A stretch of 44,768 nucleotides of DNA from Paludibacteraceae bacterium (GTDB lineage Bacteria; Bacteroidota; Bacteroidia; Bacteroidales; Paludibacteraceae), in assembly GCA_024401455.1 (NCBI GenBank), contig JAKSLA010000023.1:1-44768 (forward strand). The letters run 5' to 3'. The notes beneath the pieces are model-generated. The model was not told where the DNA came from, did not search any database, and was given only the letters and a program-made list of their open reading frames with translations. Both the position numbers and the translations under genes were made by a program. Positions 31,087 to 44,701 of this stretch are shown piece by piece (position 1 is the stretch's first letter; every line of letters starts with the position of its first letter).

Positions 31087-32580
31087 CTATTTTGTAATGA
31101 TGTATTTTACTCCTTTACCTATAATCAAACCACGACAACTCTCTGACGCTTTTACTCCCAAGATATTGTATCGAGGCTCTTGGCGGATGATATCGGTCTG
31201 ACTAACCTCTTGAATGTCAGTTGCATTCGAATCGCAGACATAATCATACTCAATAACCTGAGTATCATATATATAGTCACAAGATATTTTAGGATTGGCA
31301 AGTGCATTGCCGTTATCGTCGCAAACCAATGCAGCAGGAATAACAACCTCTATTGAGTCTCCTGGCAACAAGCCACGAAGCGATTCCTCCGAACGGATGG
31401 ATCCTATTGAGAAATAAGCATCTTTATAAAGCGGAGCAACTCCTATGTTTGTCACAGTCAGCCTCGTTTGGATGCCGTCACTTTTACAATTAGTAACCAC
31501 GAAATGGTAACCTGTAGCCATACTACATTCTTTGAAACGCTTAGCATTGTTGTAGGGATTTCTACCCGACGGATTGTTGTTGGCTATCATAAAGGTAATA
31601 TGATACTTCGCCGACTGTTCTTCCCAAGTATGGCCATACATGCCCTGAGGATTAGTGAAATCGGTTTGGTCGTGTGCTGTATAATAACTAACCTCTCCTC
31701 CACAAACACCACTGTTCCATCGGTTCTTTCCCATCGCAATCCAATTGTATTCATTAAAGCCATCGTCCGAACCGATTTCGTGGTTCTCGTGCATAAACGA
31801 ATCGTCGAAGAGACCGAATGTCAATCCTTGCAACTCTTTATCTGCGGCGAAGGGCGTATATTGCTTGTCGGCGGCATCAATGCTAATAGACCACGGAAGT
31901 TTTTTCATCACCGATGAAAGGTGAATGAAAAACTCTTTTTGGTATTCTTTCGTAGGAAAATTCGTCCCGAATTCAATTTTTGTCCCATTATCGTCATAAA
32001 TATGATATTCAGACCAATGGCCGAAACCCACTTCCAAGAACGCTATGCGAGGGTCTGTATCGTATTTTTCCGAGAAATCGGTGTAAAATTGTTTCGTAAA
32101 GCGCTTAAGTTCACTATTGCTCCAATCGGCATAATAGGTTTCTCCATCTCCGGCCACTTTTTTATAGGTCTCGTGATAATTGCTTAAGGCTTTAATGTAG
32201 TCAGGCACGCCTGTTGTTCCCGGCTTGTCGTCCACCATCTTCACGCCCGGATACTCATAAAAGAAGCGCACAACGGCCTGATGGTTACGGCTTTTAATAT
32301 CGTCGAGCAGTCGTTCTAAATAACTCCAATCGTATATTATTGTTCCATCGCTATCACACCCTTTCACCACCTTGCAAGGAGCAATGTACGAGAATTCCAA
32401 AGCATGGCTTTCCCCATAACTGGCCAAACGGCTTTTGGCTTCATCGGGCCACAACACCAATCCTGTCATCGGTTGAACACCTTGCACATGTGCATCAAGT
32501 TTGATTTGTTTCCAATCCGATGCCATACTATTCAACGCAAAAATCAGTTGGAGACCCCATAAAAGTATTCTTTTCTTCAT
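31087..32580 (-). CDS. Secreted DUF4874/DUF4832-type protein (glycoside-hydrolase-like)
   Basis: The 497-residue protein has a signal peptide (MKKRILLWGLQLIFALNSMA). The N-terminal half looks like the TIM-barrel-like DUF4874: QPMTGLVLWPDE, LEFSYIAPCKVV, YDWSYLERLLDDIKSRNHQAVVRFFYEYPG and DPRIAFLEVGFGHWSEYH. The C-terminal half fits DUF4832: GGEVSYYTAHDQ, SAKYHITFMIANNNP, a beta-sandwich with TRLTVTNIGVAPLYKDAYFSIG. Such proteins are often found with polysaccharide-degrading genes, but their activity is not established. The last ~25 residues (YNILGVKASESCRGLIIGKGVKYIITK minus the ends) resemble the short Bacteroidales C-terminal motif ending in GKKY-like residues, so surface export is possible. 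It has its own promoter and ends near alaS. Confidence 0.65.
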   Translation of the reverse strand: MKKRILLWGLQLIFALNSMASDWKQIKLDAHVQGVQPMTGLVLWPDEAKSRLASYGESHALEFSYIAPCKVVKGCDSDGTIIYDWSYLERLLDDIKSRNHQAVVRFFYEYPGVKMVDDKPGTTGVPDYIKALSNYHETYKKVAGDGETYYADWSNSELKRFTKQFYTDFSEKYDTDPRIAFLEVGFGHWSEYHIYDDNGTKIEFGTNFPTKEYQKEFFIHLSSVMKKLPWSISIDAADKQYTPFAADKELQGLTFGLFDDSFMHENHEIGSDDGFNEYNWIAMGKNRWNSGVCGGEVSYYTAHDQTDFTNPQGMYGHTWEEQSAKYHITFMIANNNPSGRNPYNNAKRFKECSMATGYHFVVTNCKSDGIQTRLTVTNIGVAPLYKDAYFSIGSIRSEESLRGLLPGDSIEVVIPAALVCDDNGNALANPKISCDYIYDTQVIEYDYVCDSNATDIQEVSQTDIIRQEPRYNILGVKASESCRGLIIGKGVKYIITK

Positions 32581-34324: not shown

Positions 34325-34948
34325 ATGCTTACATTCGTAGATATATTAGAATACGTAGGAACATTCGCTTTTGCCATTAGTGGTATTCGTTTGGCATGTC
34401 AGAAAGACTTTGACATATTTGGCGCCTACGTTGTCGGACTTGCCACGGCCATTGGAGGAGGAACGATTCGTGACCTATTGCTTGACATCACTCCGTTTTG
34501 GATGACCCAGTCAAGTTACTTGATTTGGTCAGGCATTGCCCTACTCTTTGTCTGTCTCTTCCGCAAATACTTGGTTAGGCTGGACATCACTTTCTTTATA
34601 TTTGACACCATTGGATTGGCACTTTTTACGGTAGTAGGCATTGAAAAAACACTTTCCATGGATTTTCATTATCCATTTTGGGTGGCTATCATCATGGGAA
34701 CAATCACGGGTGCGGCCGGAGGTGTAATTAGGGACATTTTCATCAATGAAATACCTCTTATATTTAGAAAAGAGATATATGCTCTCGCCTGCATAATCGG
34801 TGGAATCACCTACTATTTCAGCCTAATGCTTTTTGACAACCTCGTGATTGTGCAGATTATCAGTTCGGCAAGCATTTTCATAACTCGAATAATAGCGGTT
34901 AAATACGAAATCGGGCTTCCTCATATCAAAGGAGAAGAGTGCGATTAA
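34325..34948 (+). CDS. TRIC/UPF0126 family membrane channel
   Basis: The 207-residue membrane protein has about six to seven helices arranged as two repeats, each with a glycine-rich kink: GLATAIGGGTIRDLLLD and TGAAGGVIRDIFINE. These match the bacterial trimeric intracellular cation channel family (UPF0126, YadS-like), related to K+-permeable channels. Length and motifs are normal. It is the last gene of the M23-MerR unit. Confidence 0.88.
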   Translation: MLTFVDILEYVGTFAFAISGIRLACQKDFDIFGAYVVGLATAIGGGTIRDLLLDITPFWMTQSSYLIWSGIALLFVCLFRKYLVRLDITFFIFDTIGLALFTVVGIEKTLSMDFHYPFWVAIIMGTITGAAGGVIRDIFINEIPLIFRKEIYALACIIGGITYYFSLMLFDNLVIVQIISSASIFITRIIAVKYEIGLPHIKGEECD

Positions 34949-35021
34949 ATCGTCAACACAAACATATAACTATTTAAAAATCTTGCAATTAAAAAATTGA
35001 CGAATAATTCATACTGTTTTT

Positions 35022-35104: not shown

Positions 35105-38100
35105 ATGGAAAACAAGAGAATCCATTTGCGTCGAAACCTTTGGGTTGGCGCATTCATGCTTTCATCACTGCTATCGACTGGCAACGCTTGGGCAGTAGAT
35201 CCATGCTCCCAGACCACGCCATTAAGCGGTGGTACAACAATCAACAATCAAAACAAAACAGGAAAGACTTCCACAGGTTATGATTATGAAATCTGGCGTG
35301 ATGGAAACGGAGGTTCCTTGACCTTGTATCCAAAAGACGCTTGCTTTAAAGCCGAATGGAACAACGCAGGAGACTATTTGGGTCGTGTAGGTAAAACATT
35401 CAACAAGCCAGCTTGGAACAATTTGGGTGGCGATCTTATTGCTAACTATGCATATAAGAAGAGCGGTAATGATGGAGGAACCTATTCATACATAGGCATC
35501 TACGGTTGGATGGATAATCCACAAATCGAATATTATATCGTTGACGACTGGTTGCACGACCGTGGTAATCCGGGTGGTTCATACATAGGATCCAATATGG
35601 GCACCATCGTGGTTGATGGTGACGAATATGTAGTTTGGTCTGGTACTCGTACGGGTGCGTCCAAGTGGGGAAACTCTACATTTACACAAATATTTAGTAT
35701 CCGTAAGACTCGCCGTCAATGCGGTACTATCAATGTTTCTGAGCACTTCAGACAATGGAACAAGTTAGGTTTGAAACTTGGACAGATCATGGAGTCTCAA
35801 ATTTTGGCAGAGGCCGGTGGTGGTTCTGGTTATGTAGATTTCACCTATGCTACTATTGAAATTGGCAAAGCAGATGCCGGTTCAAATGACAACGGTGGCA
35901 AAGAGCAATCAACCACAGACCCATGCGAGAAGACTTCCAAATATTCCGGTGGAACACTTGTTTCTACAAACGGAATCAAGGACATCGGCAATGGTTACAA
36001 CTACGAGTTGTGGAGAGAGCGTGAAGGTCAAGGCTACATGAACGTATTCGGAGGTGATGCAGATTGTGCATTCAAGGCCCATTGGGAAAACTCGGGCGAC
36101 TATTTGGCTCGTGTTGGCTACTACGATGGCCCTGCCACAAAGAAGTACACTGAATTGGGCGAAATCACTGCTGATTACAATTATACTAAGTCAGGTAATG
36201 CTGGAGATTATTCATACATCGGTGTGTATGGTTGGACAAAATCTCCAATGATTGAGTATTACATCGTAGATGACTCGTACAATGGAATGGGAAAACCTTA
36301 TGGATCAGAGCCAATCGCTCAATATTCTCTTGACGGTGCGACTTACACGTTGTATAAGGGTATGCGCTACAATGCAGCTAACATTACAGGCACTAACACA
36401 GACTTCCCTCAAATCTTTGCCGTGCGTTCTTCTGCTCGTTCATGTGGACACATCTCTGTAAGCGAGCACTTTAAGAACTGGGAAAAGAATGGCATCCAAC
36501 TTGGTGGAATTTATGATTGTAAGATCGTTTGCGAAGCAGGTGGCGGAAATGGTACAATCGAATATACGTATGCTACGATGTCTTGGGACGGCAAAGGAGG
36601 TGGTTCATTAACACCATCTGAGCCTTCTGAGCCAGAAGGTCCATACAAGGAAATCATTTCTATCCCTGGAAAAATCGAGGCAGAGGACTACGACAAGGGC
36701 GGAAATGGATTCGGTTATTACGATACAGACAACAAAAATGAAACAGGCAAATATCGTAATGATGGAGTGGATATCGAGGCTGGAGGCACAGGCTATGCAA
36801 TCGGTCACACCACAACGGATGAATGGTTAAAATACACCATTAAGGTAGAGAAGGATGGCAAGTATGACATCTATGCAAATGCATCTAATGGTTCAACTGA
36901 CATTGAGTTTAATCTTGAATTGGACGGCAAGTCATTGTGTACTTTGTCTGGCAGTGGAAACGGTGGCAATGATTGGGACACGTACAAACTCATTTCCAAG
37001 AAGTCTGTAACGCTTACAGCAGGCGAGCACACATTGAAGGTTAAGTACGGAACAATGTATTGTAACTTGGATTACATCGAAATCGTTCCAGAGGGCGAAG
37101 GCGGTGGCAGCCAAGGTGGTGGCGAGACCCCAGAAGTCCCAGGAACTACTGCTTCAGGCTCATTCTTCGATGAAAACGGCGCTTATTTTGGTCCTGAATG
37201 CGAGAGCGACGGCACACAAAAGAGCGGAGCTTTCTACACAGGTGTTTACCCTTCTCCATTCAAGACTTACTTGGGCAAGAGCGACGAGGAGATTCAAGGC
37301 AAGTTGGATAAACTTTGGAACCACTACTTCAAAGGTGACAACAACAGCAAGGTTTATTACGAGAATGGCAACGAGGCTTACATCAAGGACATCAACAACG
37401 ACGATGTTCGTTCAGAGGGTCAGTCTTATGGTATGATGATCTGTGTTCAGACCAACCACAAGACAGAATTCGACAAACTTTGGAAGTTTGCTAAGAGCCA
37501 CATGCTCCACACTTCCGGACAATGGGAAGGATACTTCAAGTGGAAGTGTAACCCAGACGGTTCTGCTCAAGATGCCAACTGTGCTCCTGACGGTGAGATG
37601 TACTTTGTAACTTCACTTTTGTTGGCTGCCAACCGTTGGAACGACAAGTCGTATGCTGACGATGCCAACTACTGCTTGCAAAGATTCTGGAAGAACGGCA
37701 ACGGTTCTTTGTTCAACGAGAGCTATAAGATCATCACGTTCCAACCATATAACTGCTCTAACTTCGGAGATCCATCTTACGACCTCCCTGCATTCATCGA
37801 GTTGTTCGCAAGATGGTCTAAGTCTAACAACTCTAAGTGGGAAGGTTGCTTGGCTCCTACCCGCGGTCACTTGAAGGCATCTTGCCACTCTTCATCAGGT
37901 TTGTTCGCCGACTATTCTGAGTTCAACGGTCAACCAACCACTGGTGGTTTCAGTTCCAACTCCAACAAGTACATGTATGACGCTATGCGTTGTGCGATGA
38001 ACGTAGGTATGGACTACTACTTGTTCGGTGCAGACAAGAGCACACAAAAGGACATGATGACTCGTTTGATCAACCACTTCGAGAAGGATGGTTATGCTCA

Positions 38101-38734
38101 CGCTCGTTTCAATTGGGATGGTTCAGGGGCTTCTGAAGAATATACCGTTGGAGAGTGCGGTGCTAACGCTGTAGGTTGCTACGCATTGATGGACGACCCT
38201 GCAAACGACAGCAAGGTCAAGACCAACTTGAAGAAGGCTTGGGACGGACAATTGATGACCGGTCGATATCGCTACTACGATGGTTTGGTTCACTACTTGT
38301 CAATGCTCCACTTGTGCGGAAGCTTCAAGATTTACAAGCCAGCTCCATCTATCGAGGAGAAGACAGTTGAGGGAGGCAATTCCGTTATTTTCCAAGGTGT
38401 AGAATACACGGAAGACACAAACATCACAGCGTTTGAAGATTGTCAATTGTACAATGTAAACATCAAAGTTAATATCGACATCGATATTAGTGCAAACGAC
38501 GATGTTCAAATTTCAGAAGAGGTTTCCCTCTACCCTAACCCAGCATCAGGCGAATTCTCTATCAAGAGCAACAAGTCAACCAAGTCTATTGCATTGACAA
38601 ACATGATGGGACAAGAGGTTTACACTCAAGCAGGTGCAGACAACATTCAAATCAGCCTTCCTGCTGGTTCTTACATGGTGAAGGTAATCATGGAGGACGG
38701 TGACAGCAAGATGCTTAAGTTGTTGGTTAAGTAA
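35105..38734 (+). CDS. Multi-domain secreted xylanase: GH11-GH11-CBM6-GH8 with T9SS sorting domain
   Basis: A 1209-residue secreted enzyme for xylan. A signal peptide (1-30, ending GNAWA) leads into two GH11 domains. GH11-A (about 33-255) has IEYYIVDDW with likely nucleophile Glu142 and acid/base Glu236 in AEAGGGSG. GH11-B (about 272-496) has IEYYIVDD (Glu384) and CEAGGGNG (Glu477). A proline/glutamate linker precedes a CBM6-type carbohydrate-binding module (about 515-662; IEAEDYDKGG, then TTDEWLKYTI and NLDYIEIVP). A G/P/E-rich linker follows. The GH8 domain (about 686-1080) resembles reducing-end xylose-releasing exo-oligoxylanases (Rex): KDINNDDVRSEGQSYGMM (Glu771), CAPDGEMYF (Asp829) and a likely base Asp959 in YMYDAMR. 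The last ~70 residues (SLYPNPASGEFS onward) are a T9SS type A sorting domain. Its codon choice suggests high expression. Confidence 0.9.
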   Translation: MENKRIHLRRNLWVGAFMLSSLLSTGNAWAVDPCSQTTPLSGGTTINNQNKTGKTSTGYDYEIWRDGNGGSLTLYPKDACFKAEWNNAGDYLGRVGKTFNKPAWNNLGGDLIANYAYKKSGNDGGTYSYIGIYGWMDNPQIEYYIVDDWLHDRGNPGGSYIGSNMGTIVVDGDEYVVWSGTRTGASKWGNSTFTQIFSIRKTRRQCGTINVSEHFRQWNKLGLKLGQIMESQILAEAGGGSGYVDFTYATIEIGKADAGSNDNGGKEQSTTDPCEKTSKYSGGTLVSTNGIKDIGNGYNYELWREREGQGYMNVFGGDADCAFKAHWENSGDYLARVGYYDGPATKKYTELGEITADYNYTKSGNAGDYSYIGVYGWTKSPMIEYYIVDDSYNGMGKPYGSEPIAQYSLDGATYTLYKGMRYNAANITGTNTDFPQIFAVRSSARSCGHISVSEHFKNWEKNGIQLGGIYDCKIVCEAGGGNGTIEYTYATMSWDGKGGGSLTPSEPSEPEGPYKEIISIPGKIEAEDYDKGGNGFGYYDTDNKNETGKYRNDGVDIEAGGTGYAIGHTTTDEWLKYTIKVEKDGKYDIYANASNGSTDIEFNLELDGKSLCTLSGSGNGGNDWDTYKLISKKSVTLTAGEHTLKVKYGTMYCNLDYIEIVPEGEGGGSQGGGETPEVPGTTASGSFFDENGAYFGPECESDGTQKSGAFYTGVYPSPFKTYLGKSDEEIQGKLDKLWNHYFKGDNNSKVYYENGNEAYIKDINNDDVRSEGQSYGMMICVQTNHKTEFDKLWKFAKSHMLHTSGQWEGYFKWKCNPDGSAQDANCAPDGEMYFVTSLLLAANRWNDKSYADDANYCLQRFWKNGNGSLFNESYKIITFQPYNCSNFGDPSYDLPAFIELFARWSKSNNSKWEGCLAPTRGHLKASCHSSSGLFADYSEFNGQPTTGGFSSNSNKYMYDAMRCAMNVGMDYYLFGADKSTQKDMMTRLINHFEKDGYAHARFNWDGSGASEEYTVGECGANAVGCYALMDDPANDSKVKTNLKKAWDGQLMTGRYRYYDGLVHYLSMLHLCGSFKIYKPAPSIEEKTVEGGNSVIFQGVEYTEDTNITAFEDCQLYNVNIKVNIDIDISANDDVQISEEVSLYPNPASGEFSIKSNKSTKSIALTNMMGQEVYTQAGADNIQISLPAGSYMVKVIMEDGDSKMLKLLVK

Positions 38735-38756
38735 TTACATACACTTCTATAAAAAA

Positions 38757-38785
38757 GGCAACTCAAACGGGTTGCCTTTTTTTTT
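38757..38785 (+). terminator. Terminator of the xylanase gene
   Basis: GGCAACTC (38757-38764) pairs with GGGTTGCC (38769-38776, one G-T pair) around a 4-nt loop, flanked by A-run and a long T-run. Confidence 0.92.
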
Positions 38786-43141: not shown

Positions 43142-44701
43142 CTACCGCCTCTTCGCCCAAATGATTCCTTCATAGACATCCACTCCGTTGACCGTTTTCC
43201 ATTCAGGCACGGTCTGCACGACTTTCTTTTTTAGGAATGAGAAAGTGATGAGATAGGCTTTCTTCAAACCACGAACGTTGGCATATTCAGATACTTGGTC
43301 TTCTCCTTTGCGTTCGTATTTGTTGCCATACCACAACTTTAGTTCTATCAAGAATTCCTCTCCTGCATAGTTGACCACAATATCCATTCGCTTGTTGTCG
43401 CGTGTCTGTGGCTCAACGTAATAATAGCCAGTGCCGTTGATGATCGGTTTTAGGAAACAAAGGAATAGCAGACGTCCTTGTCGTTCCAAGAATTCGGCAT
43501 CCTCGTCACGATACTCCTCTTCCAACAAATCCTTGAAACGCTCGATGATATATTCCATATTGAGTTTGCCGCTAAGGATATATTCGGATTTTGTGACACT
43601 TATCTTACCTGAATTTTCGCGCTGGTAACGAATCGAAAAATATTCATGGAAGATCTCCTCAAATATGGCATTATGAATCGTCACATGCCCATCTACATCC
43701 TTGATATAGGAATACATATCGGCAATTTTCAGAATCTCATCCGTTAAATTGTATGTGTATGTCTCGCCATTAACCGATATTGAATATATGAAATCCTTTA
43801 ATTCCTTATTGTTGCCCAAATTTTTTGAGATGTCATCTGCCAAAGTATTATTGCCTATTATAATATATTTGGCGGCTTTGTTGATTCCCTCGATTGTCCA
43901 ATTACCCTCTAATTCTTCATGAGTAAGGGAGCAAAGATAACTCACAAGCACAGGGTATCCCGACGTCATTCTACGGATCTCATCAGCAATCAACTTCGTA
44001 TCCATACCTGTGTGGTAATCGGATTCATACTCGTCAAGCATGCCTTTGATTCCTTCCGCACTCAATGACATGTCAACATTAAAACGGACTGCTATATTCC
44101 AAGGTGAATTGTATTTTTGCTCTTCATCGCTACGAATCTTTAATTTAAGATTTTTGACGTCATAGACACCAGCAAGAATGACCGAATGAAAGGTGGAATT
44201 CATGCCGTTCGTATCTCGGTCAAGATACTTGTTTCTCAGCATACCGAGGAAATGCAAAAACAACTGGTTGTCGGTACTTTTATCCACCTCATCAATCATC
44301 AAGACAACAGGTTTATTTTGGCTAAGGCAAAATTCAGTTATGACATCTGAAAGATCTTCAAATGTTTTGCAATTATGATTACTTTTCCAAAATTCTATTT
44401 GGCTCTGCGGTATATATGCTGCTTTCGATAATTTCGCAAATAGTCCTCTGCAAAAATCTTCCTGAGAAGAAAACATATCGGCATCAGTCTCAAAACTAAT
44501 TTGATATACTTGATATATATTTGATAATTTACCAAGCAACATCTTCATCGTTGTCGTCTTTCCGAACTGACGCGCACGGTTGATGGTGAAATATAGTCCT
44601 TTGTCAACGAGTTCGCGGATTTTCGCCAACTTGTCGTCAATATTCACCATGTAATGTCGCGCTGGATTGCAACAGCCTGTCGTATTGAATTCTTTTGCCA
44701 T
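43142..44701 (-). CDS. AAA-ATPase with C-terminal PD-(D/E)XK nuclease-like domain
   Basis: The 519-residue protein fits the AAA-ATPase_like family joined to a DUF1703-type nuclease fold, present in many copies in Bacteroidetes genomes. Walker A is NRARQFGKTTTM (about 41-52; a GKTT variant) and Walker B is VVLMIDEVDKS (about 132-142; Asp137, Glu138). The middle is helical. The C-terminus shows a D-ExK catalytic pattern: RMDIVVNYAGEEFLIELK (Asp440, Glu453, Lys455), then YLITFSF. Function in any copy is not established; mobile-element or defence roles have been suggested for similar proteins. Its promoter/leader is the 51-bp repeat shared with the 20736 gene. It is intact. Confidence 0.85.
   Translation of the reverse strand: MAKEFNTTGCCNPARHYMVNIDDKLAKIRELVDKGLYFTINRARQFGKTTTMKMLLGKLSNIYQVYQISFETDADMFSSQEDFCRGLFAKLSKAAYIPQSQIEFWKSNHNCKTFEDLSDVITEFCLSQNKPVVLMIDEVDKSTDNQLFLHFLGMLRNKYLDRDTNGMNSTFHSVILAGVYDVKNLKLKIRSDEEQKYNSPWNIAVRFNVDMSLSAEGIKGMLDEYESDYHTGMDTKLIADEIRRMTSGYPVLVSYLCSLTHEELEGNWTIEGINKAAKYIIIGNNTLADDISKNLGNNKELKDFIYSISVNGETYTYNLTDEILKIADMYSYIKDVDGHVTIHNAIFEEIFHEYFSIRYQRENSGKISVTKSEYILSGKLNMEYIIERFKDLLEEEYRDEDAEFLERQGRLLFLCFLKPIINGTGYYYVEPQTRDNKRMDIVVNYAGEEFLIELKLWYGNKYERKGEDQVSEYANVRGLKKAYLITFSFLKKKVVQTVPEWKTVNGVDVYEGIIWAKRR

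Follow-up and report, generated by a model that had tools for sequence, protein, structure and literature searches.

Architecture and occurrence of the xylanase

The window analysed here, a stretch of 44,768 nucleotides from a Paludibacteraceae bacterium (positions 1 to 44,768 of contig JAKSLA010000023.1, assembly GCA_024401455.1), carries a modular xylanase gene, an open reading frame (ORF) at 35105-38734 (+) that translates into a product of 1209 residues. The order of its parts is signal peptide, GH11, GH11, CBM6, GH8 and a sorting domain of the type IX secretion system (T9SS). Comparison with proteins of the same layout shows that the modules standing in this fixed order do not share one history. 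The parts of the gene are as follows; Rex denotes the reducing-end xylose-releasing exo-oligoxylanases.

35105..35197, forward strand: predicted signal peptide, residues 1-31, read from the translation, ending ...NAWA-VDPC
35222..35890, forward strand: GH11a, residues 40-262, with Glu142 and Glu236 (PF00457; alignment to 3wp4)
35927..36604, forward strand: GH11b, residues 275-500, with Glu384 and Glu477 (PF00457; alignment to 3wp4)
36656..37099, forward strand: CBM6, residues 518-665 (PF03422)
37187..38350, forward strand: GH8, residues 695-1082, with Glu771, Asp829 and Asp959 and without the Rex histidine (PF01270; alignments to solved GH8 enzymes; tree)
38351..38518, forward strand: spacer X between GH8 and the sorting domain (no Pfam match)
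38519..38734, forward strand: T9SS type A C-terminal sorting domain (CTD), residues 1139-1209, with the stop codon (PF18962, TIGR04183)

The first-pass annotation had read two GH11 modules, a CBM6, a GH8 and a T9SS sorting domain with their catalytic residues, and this is borne out by Pfam and TIGR profiles and by alignment. All Pfam scores exceed the curated cut-offs: 217.6 bits for Glyco_hydro_11 over two stretches, 81.5 for Glyco_hydro_8 (PF01270, cut-off 24), 48.5 for CBM_6 and 35.6 for Por_Secre_tail (PF18962, cut-off 27), the last identifying the sorting domain as type A, as does TIGR04183 at 38 bits (cut-off 23). Scored singly in a whole-genome profile scan, the GH11 copies reach 120.2 and 119 bits (PF00457, cut-off 27) and are placed at 35273-35839 and 35990-36562. 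The per-domain searches place both GH11 stretches and the GH8 close to the residues first proposed, with small border differences only; the second GH11 profile match spans approximately residues 296-486 and GH8 homology to solved structures covers residues 697-1078. The N-terminal stretch MENKRIHLRRNLWVGAFMLSSLLSTGNAWA reads by eye from the translation as a signal peptide. All catalytic residues listed above are intact in the alignments. Glu142 occupies the column of the 3wp4 glutamate that is alanine in 3wp5 and 3wp6, Glu771 that of the glutamate reading alanine in 6to0, and Asp829 and Asp959 match the same aspartates in all four GH8 reference chains (BhRex, PbRex8A, TtGH8 and 22gt), to which Glu771 is likewise aligned. 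In CBM6, Trp624 and Asn654 are present and are invariant in 10 of 10 aligned proteins.

The nearest solved relative of both GH11 modules is the GH11 chain 3wp4 'CDBFV'. GH11a and GH11b are 44% identical to each other and fall in two different clades of a GH11 tree of 97 domains (from the 100 that remained of 137 after duplicate removal, paralogues and truncated copies included), so that their duplication is probably old. Across these 97 domains the nucleophile column is glutamate throughout and the acid/base column is glutamate in 94, with threonine in L004-L006. Here and below, L-numbers label loci and G-numbers genomes; the genome of the window is G000, and locus L034 lies in G036.

GH11 was found in 42 of 300 genomes of the family of the window, drawn evenly from a larger group and including its own genome, and in 10 of 33 genera, with up to 8 matches in one genome; the earlier remark that GH11 is not common in Bacteroidetes fails for this family. 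Scanning genome contigs with a GH11-GH11 query yielded 41 loci, of which one is from Fibrobacter and six are from Butyrivibrio. The complete GH11-GH11-CBM6-GH8 layout is present in nine of the 41 (L034, L036, L037, L039, L041, L042, L043, L054 and L056), and contig ends cut it in four more (L035, L038, L044 and L040, the last before GH8). The layout, which the first-pass annotation had treated as unfamiliar, is consequently not unique, and passages of a 2018 paper also describe a T9SS GH8-CBM6-GH11 xylanase (PMC5831590). The titles of the nine complete loci are all those of Paludibacteraceae or Bacteroidales metagenome-assembled genomes (MAGs) from the gut, and the hosts, where named among the 13 loci, are horse, yak, goat and water buffalo. 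Two of the four genomes of the window's own genus have the layout. With the window's own sorting domain as sole query, the sorting domain was matched in seven of the nine complete proteins; L037 and L039 do not match.

Conflicting histories of the modules

Maximum-likelihood trees of the four modules were built from 10 same-layout proteins, with paralogues and truncated copies left out. When each module was confronted with the trees of the others, approximately unbiased (AU) tests rejected the foreign tree in 12 of 12 comparisons (p from 0.0022 to 2.5e-79), with log-likelihood (lnL) differences of 49-517. The modules of these proteins do not share one history, and the conflict between their trees is well supported. 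Alanyl-tRNA synthetase (AlaRS) served as control, in nine genomes for the tree tests and eight for the correlation described below, L036 being omitted since its alaS is in pieces. The quarters of AlaRS differ by 0-17.9 lnL units; quarter 2 rejects the trees of quarters 3 and 4 in the Kishino-Hasegawa (KH) test (p 0.025 for both; AU p 0.0040 for one) and the remaining 10 of 12 comparisons are not rejected by the KH test, such that the control has some conflict, far smaller than that between the xylanase modules. GH11a and GH8 also strongly reject the AlaRS tree (by 232 and 410 lnL units). As an aside, alaS was found only in pieces in G688 (L036) and in G697 (L035), unlike the other 14 genomes searched.

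The same picture emerges from pairwise identities. For nine proteins (L034 omitted as near-identical to the window; paralogues and truncated copies likewise) divided into 13 segments, the mean correlation of the 36 pairwise identities is 0.74 between segments of one module (17 segment pairs) and 0.11 between segments of different modules (61 pairs; label permutation p 5e-5). The true module borders rank first of 56 contiguous partitions, with a within-between difference of 0.63. AlaRS cut into 13 segments with the same labels has no such blocks (r 0.80 within, 0.76 between), whereas the xylanase on the same eight genomes retains them (0.78 and 0.13).

Individual pairs illustrate the effect. 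The classification tool's genus labels, assignable to the loci because locus and genome coordinates match, place the window and L034 in g1, L036 in g4, L037 and L039 in g19, and L041, L042, L043, L054 and L056 in g27. AlaRS identity among the nine of 10 genomes with a whole alaS is 99% for L037-L039, 97-99% among L041, L042 and L043, 98% for L054-L056, 96% for window-L034 and 78-85% for the other pairs. Against this background, L037 and L039 are 74% identical in GH11a, 100% in GH11b, 99% in CBM6 and 96% in GH8; L041 and L042 are at 79, 77, 52 and 64%, and the window and L043 at 73, 66, 82 and 67%. Close species (L041-L042-L043 and L054-L056) can thus diverge in a module by anything from 20% to about half, and different genera share one at 90% or more, namely GH8 in L037-L042 and GH11a in L036-L037. 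GH8 is 95% identical between L037 and L042 and 64% between L041 and L042, where AlaRS is 78% and 97%. The GH11 tree adds that GH11a types are shared across several assemblies belonging to several genera.

Nucleotide comparison along the loci reveals that many breaks coincide with module borders. L037 and L039 are collinear over 13.5 kb at 90.8% identity: GH11a lies at 54-85%, identity rises abruptly within the GH11a-GH11b linker, reaching 97-100% in GH11b and 96-100% in CBM6, GH8 lies at 85-100% with 78% in its last interval, spacer X falls to 61-79% and the sorting domain is at 96-99%. The first part of their neighbouring GH8 gene is at 73-80%, so GH11a is not the sole divergent stretch. Between L042 and L043 the break sits at the end of GH8, where identity passes from 61-72% to 89-99%. 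Strongly conserved segments mark the junctions, at the entry to CBM6 (approximately EEPYKGxIxIPG), the entry to GH8 (FFDENGAYFGP) and its exit (GLVHYLxMLHL), and could serve as homology anchors for crossover.

Of six comparisons between paralogues in the same genome, four are module-wide matches at 89.5-96.2% nucleotide identity. GH11b of L042 matches the GH11 of T9SS protein L062 in the same MAG (Tb.RUG.361) at 96.2% over residues 353-590 only, and L043 matches L060 (RGIG10174) at 92.7% over residues 362-598; both matches stop within about six residues of the module. Residues 1-314 of L043, which include GH11a, match the adjacent gene at 89.5%, and the GH8 of L039 that of a gene in the same locus (L039 918) at 95.3%. 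The weaker pairs are L037 with its neighbour (L037 950) at 86.8% and L042 with its adjacent gene at 74.0%. Such module-bounded matches make conversion between paralogues of one genome one likely route of module exchange, and exchange between genera is likely another.

Other layouts occur alongside: GH11-CBM6-GH8; three or four tandem GH11; a polysaccharide-deacetylase domain with GH8; and a SASA esterase domain with GH11-CBM6 and a glucuronoyl esterase. Tandem arrays of three or four GH11 are carried by T9SS proteins of L047 (3751-7992, behind a BD-FAE esterase domain) and L048-L052, and look old because their copies cluster partly by position across species in the 97-domain tree. The genome of the window has a second GH8 (G000:C25:2583-3740, L098) in a deacetylase-GH8 protein, 70% identical to that of the window gene, and a third GH11 (G000:C76:72681-73244; L003, L133) in a CBM6-GH11-CTD protein, 46% identical; neither identity points to recent conversion with the window gene. 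In another Bacteroidales family, L092 1630-9666 (2679 residues) and L093 7803-17387 (3195 residues) are GH8-carrying ORFs whose region before GH8 resembles by eye that of L098.

The window gene and its chromosomal slot

The gene occupies a slot between ORFs that read like housekeeping genes. The features around it are:

34325..34948, forward strand: gene bounding the slot on the left, PF03458 'Glycine transporter', YadS-like (name by reading), present in G003, G062 and G036
38751..38782, forward strand: terminator-like hairpin of 14 pairs followed by a T run, also kept in L034
39303..40001, reverse strand: gene bounding the slot on the right, TsaB-like (name by reading)

L034 belongs to another species of the window's genus and its GH11-GH11-CBM6-GH8 gene is near-identical to that of the window. 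At third codon positions the two agree in 94.9% for the xylanase, compared with 73.1% for alaS, 50.5% for a mepM-like gene (name by reading) and 46.6% for the yadS-like gene. Over successive 50-base intervals, identity starts at 57% in 34951-35000 and climbs to 84% and then 90%, before settling mostly at 94-100% within the gene. Two stretches of the gene fall lower, 37051-37150 (the CBM6-GH8 linker; 64-88%) and 38051-38200 (84-92%). Beyond the gene the values are 86-96% up to about 39050, 84-86% up to 39200, and at most 68% from there on. G003 and G062 are the remaining two genomes of the genus; in each, the yadS-like and tsaB-like genes lie on the same contig 3.7-3.8 kb apart, and between them stands a GH11-CBM6-GH8-CTD protein of 985 or 982 residues (L127, L128). 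In G036 the tsaB-like gene is on another contig and the xylanase contig ends about 0.6 kb past the gene.

The nearest relative changes along the window protein. In a scan that, like the GH8 tree and identity comparison, included single-GH11 proteins, and with L034 excluded, it is L037 for residues 1-50, L037 or L036 for 26-250, mostly L036 for 276-500, L127/L128, L043 and L056 for 501-675, L037, L042 and L039 for 701-1075, L057 for 1051-1125 and L127/L128 for 1126-1209. By module, GH11a is closest to L037 and L036, of two other genera, GH11b to L036, and GH8 to L037, L042 and L039, and CBM6 is about equally close to L043 and L056 of another genus and to the congeneric L127/L128. The sorting domain is 59-61% identical to L127/L128 versus 27-51% to 11 other proteins compared outside L034. 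Spacer X is 100% identical in L034, 52% in L127/L128, 50% in L057 and 49% in L036 and L039, the rest being lower. For the signal peptide the results conflict: residues 1-39 share 49% identity with L127/L128 and 43% with the closest same-layout protein other than L034, while residues 1-50 are nearest to L037 (54% against 46%). By these comparisons the window gene is a mosaic with a C-terminus of local type and with GH11 and GH8 modules nearest to other genera; its CBM6 could be either local or foreign. The simplest account would be that a local gene received foreign-type GH11 and GH8 modules and then came to be shared by two species of the genus, the order and direction of these events being inferred.

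Several observations weigh against exchange of whole modules as the explanation. Rejection of the AlaRS tree is weak for GH11b (p 0.019) and for CBM6 (p 0.012); the runner-up partition, whose final cut lies one segment inside GH8, comes close in fit (0.61); some breaks fall within modules, in the GH8 of L037/L039 and the CBM6 of L042/L043; and the window CBM6 is not specifically local, L043 being slightly closer than the congeners. The species background consists of one marker, AlaRS, and the tool's genus labels. The same-layout relatives are metagenome assemblies, in which single recombinants could be chimeric contigs, and the high window-L034 identity between differing flanks could also arise from one.

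Two other explanations for the conflict can be weighed against these data. Under vertical descent, fast and uneven divergence of the modules would suffice with no exchange; CBM6 and the linkers do evolve fast, and for GH11b and CBM6 the AlaRS tree is only a slightly poorer fit than their own trees. Rate differences alone, however, give no tree conflict, yet every cross-module AU test rejects, and GH8 is nearer across genera than within one in the L037, L041 and L042 comparison where AlaRS is the reverse. We regard this explanation as extremely improbable. An artefact of chimeric metagenome assembly and hidden paralogy is the less remote of the two and still highly unlikely. It would draw on the MAG origin of the relatives and on the many paralogues per genome, with GH11 counts as given above. 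However, L037 (Tb.RUG.234) and L039 (SIG116) come from differently named assembly series and are collinear yet strongly different in GH11a, with sharp ends, as also bound the divergent first part of their neighbouring GH8 gene. The window mosaic recurs in L034, another species, although as one shared event; the GH11a types are found in several assemblies of several genera; and the module borders beat 55 other contiguous partitions, for which assembly errors give no reason. Exchange of single modules remains the preferred reading.

Beyond the gene itself, tblastn over 72,556 plasmid records found none in which a single place spanned 80% of the query; coverage among the eight top-ranked places was at most 32%, at 31-36% identity. 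A Bacteroidetes promoter pattern has two matches in the window, a chance level, none of them upstream of the xylanase gene, and a sigma-70-type promoter scan of the region gave no excess over shuffles. Terminator-like hairpins number three in the region against 2.9 expected from shuffles, weak support for the one listed. At 31087-32580 (-) lies a secreted-looking protein with a DUF4832 match just over the cut-off; L034 seems to lack this protein at the corresponding position, its alaS and mepM-like matches lying 168 bases apart. At 43142-44701 (-) lies an AAA-like ATPase (AAA_35, AAA-ATPase_like) with a weak PD-(D/E)XK match at its C-terminal end.

GH8 activity, predicted function and known systems

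The first-pass annotation took the GH8 to be Rex-like, the GH11 modules producing oligosaccharides from which GH8 would trim the reducing-end xylose within one polypeptide. In the passages of PMC6661730 on PbRex8 of P. barengoltzii, the Rex histidine (His317) binds the beta-hydroxyl of the reducing-end xylose and the loop may block subsite +2. The corresponding loop is L-H-P-V-G in BhRex and PbRex8A, E-Y-T-V-G in the window and G-P-T-L-G in the endoxylanase TtGH8; 14 other GH8 domains of the same family read xYT-L/V-G, and nine Bacteroidales GH8 domains keep the histidine as RHS-xG. The GH8 tree has four reference chains, none of them a Bacteroides Rex with demonstrated activity; in this tree a clade of support 100 unites BhRex, PbRex8A and the nine RHS domains. 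The window lies outside that clade and groups with PDB chain 22gt ('cellulase'), to which it is 47% identical, against 35% to BhRex and PbRex8A and 37% to TtGH8. Chain 22gt_A is the nearest solved structure to the window GH8 and likewise lacks the Rex histidine. The spacing of the catalytic residues is 58/130 in the window and 58/138 in BeRex8A, the same as in three RHS domains. On loop and tree the Rex-like assignment is not supported, and degradation of xylan to xylose, as first suggested, is no longer the likelier outcome.

Against an endo-acting GH8 it must be noted that a histidine at the Rex column also occurs in L094 and L095, which lie outside the Rex clade, and that TtGH8 does not group with the window in the tree; the position of TtGH8 itself has a support of only 37 and, relative to the midpoint root, falls with the Rex enzymes. 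BeRex8A, still a Rex, lacks the Leu-His-Pro loop according to its authors in the passage concerned (PMC8417218), so loss of the histidine is not proof of endo action. A Rex activity would further agree with the phmmer scores against enzymes of named activity, slightly higher for PbRex8A (229 bits), BhRex (218) and the Rex 5yxt (215) than for TtGH8 (203), and with a catalytic triad that is that of xylan-active GH8 enzymes. The absence of the histidine from the window and its 14 aligned relatives, the placement outside the Rex clade and an aligned identity no higher to Rex enzymes than to TtGH8 or 22gt nonetheless leave Rex an unlikely, if not negligible, alternative. On this balance of loop and tree we consider the window GH8 likely to be endo-acting rather than xylose-releasing. 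Among the matches of the order-level search (393 genomes), no CE15-GH8 protein of the proven Bacteroides Rex type was recognised by ORF length and reading, no CE15 scan being made. The candidate of 843 residues, L079 369-2897, carries a GH8 with a Rex-type loop behind a region that reads by eye as GH43-like, and so does L097 2826-6122.

SprA, the sole T9SS component searched, is present in the genome of the window (2516 bits, cut-off 200), which together with the type A CTD predicts T9SS export. Type A CTDs in general direct surface anchoring rather than release. GH11 enzymes are retaining and GH8 enzymes inverting, and the combination of CBM6, two GH11 and GH8 indicates xylan as substrate. 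We are therefore fairly confident in a model in which the protein is exported by T9SS, probably anchored at the surface, equipped with three likely endo-acting modules and a CBM6, and part of a family with module exchange. The signal peptide and the CTD would carry it across both membranes, the inner and the outer; CBM6 would keep the enzyme on xylan; and the two GH11 and the GH8 would cut the backbone mid-chain to yield short oligosaccharides, not mainly xylose. The gene would belong to a modular xylanase family of herbivore-gut Bacteroidales (Paludibacteraceae) whose modules are exchanged singly, through recombination between species or genera and conversion between paralogues in one genome, with crossovers often at conserved borders. 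A wider proposal, on which we are evenly divided, is that herbivore-gut Paludibacteraceae hold a common recombining pool of modules, set as cassettes between anchors in a fixed SP-GH11-GH11-CBM6-GH8-CTD chassis (SP, signal peptide) with a lineage-bound CTD. If true, species would re-assort whole enzyme domains, possibly under selection for new combinations, reminiscent of the re-assortment in some surface antigens or non-ribosomal peptide synthetase genes.

Multi-domain carbohydrate-active enzymes (CAZymes) are usually classed by domain order, as if they were one inherited unit. In these xylanases the order is conserved while the parts are not inherited together, and annotation by full-length similarity is therefore misleading for such proteins. 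They offer natural sets of module combinations for enzyme design and a tractable case of how the fibre degraders of one gut share catalytic domains, and the loop and tree evidence corrects a likely over-reading of the window GH8 as xylose-releasing.

Among the titles and abstract openings listed in a literature search, with subscription journals mostly outside it, none dealt with module exchange between such enzymes; we do not claim that no account is in print. GH11 does not occur in the available text of a capybara gut study (PMC8810776). Among characterised enzymes, TtGH8 of Teredinibacter turnerae is, in the passages of PMC6173055 (PDB 6g00), a GH8 xylanase that also lacks the Rex histidine; it differs in its low identity to the window GH8 and is not grouped with it. 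BeCE15A-Rex8A of Bacteroides eggerthii resembles the window protein as a multicatalytic Bacteroidetes protein with a C-terminal GH8 and differs, in the account available (PMC8417218), in its CE15 partner, its human-gut polysaccharide utilisation locus (PUL) and a GH8 assayed as Rex, besides the catalytic spacing given above. XynC of Fibrobacter succinogenes (Paradis 1993) is likewise a rumen xylanase gene with two similar catalytic domains, of GH11, although the table passage describing it (PMC3079729) has no GH8 or CBM. A further parallel is offered by the T9SS multi-modular CAZymes of a rumen Bacteroidales family described by Naas et al. 2018 (PMC5831590), whose relevant passages list 'xylanases (GH8-CBM6-GH11)' and also report that rumen metaproteomes contain GH11-CBM6 secreted by T9SS. 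'Candidatus Paraporphyromonas polyenzymogenes' (Ca. MH11), in which those authors found no typical PULs, shares with the window a Bacteroidales affiliation, T9SS CTDs and several catalytic domains per protein; those passages name one GH11, not two, and hold nothing on module exchange. The window protein, with GH11, CBM6 and GH8 in one T9SS protein, belongs to this type of xylanase, and its layout is therefore a variation on a printed architecture; what is new is the module-wise pattern of its evolution.

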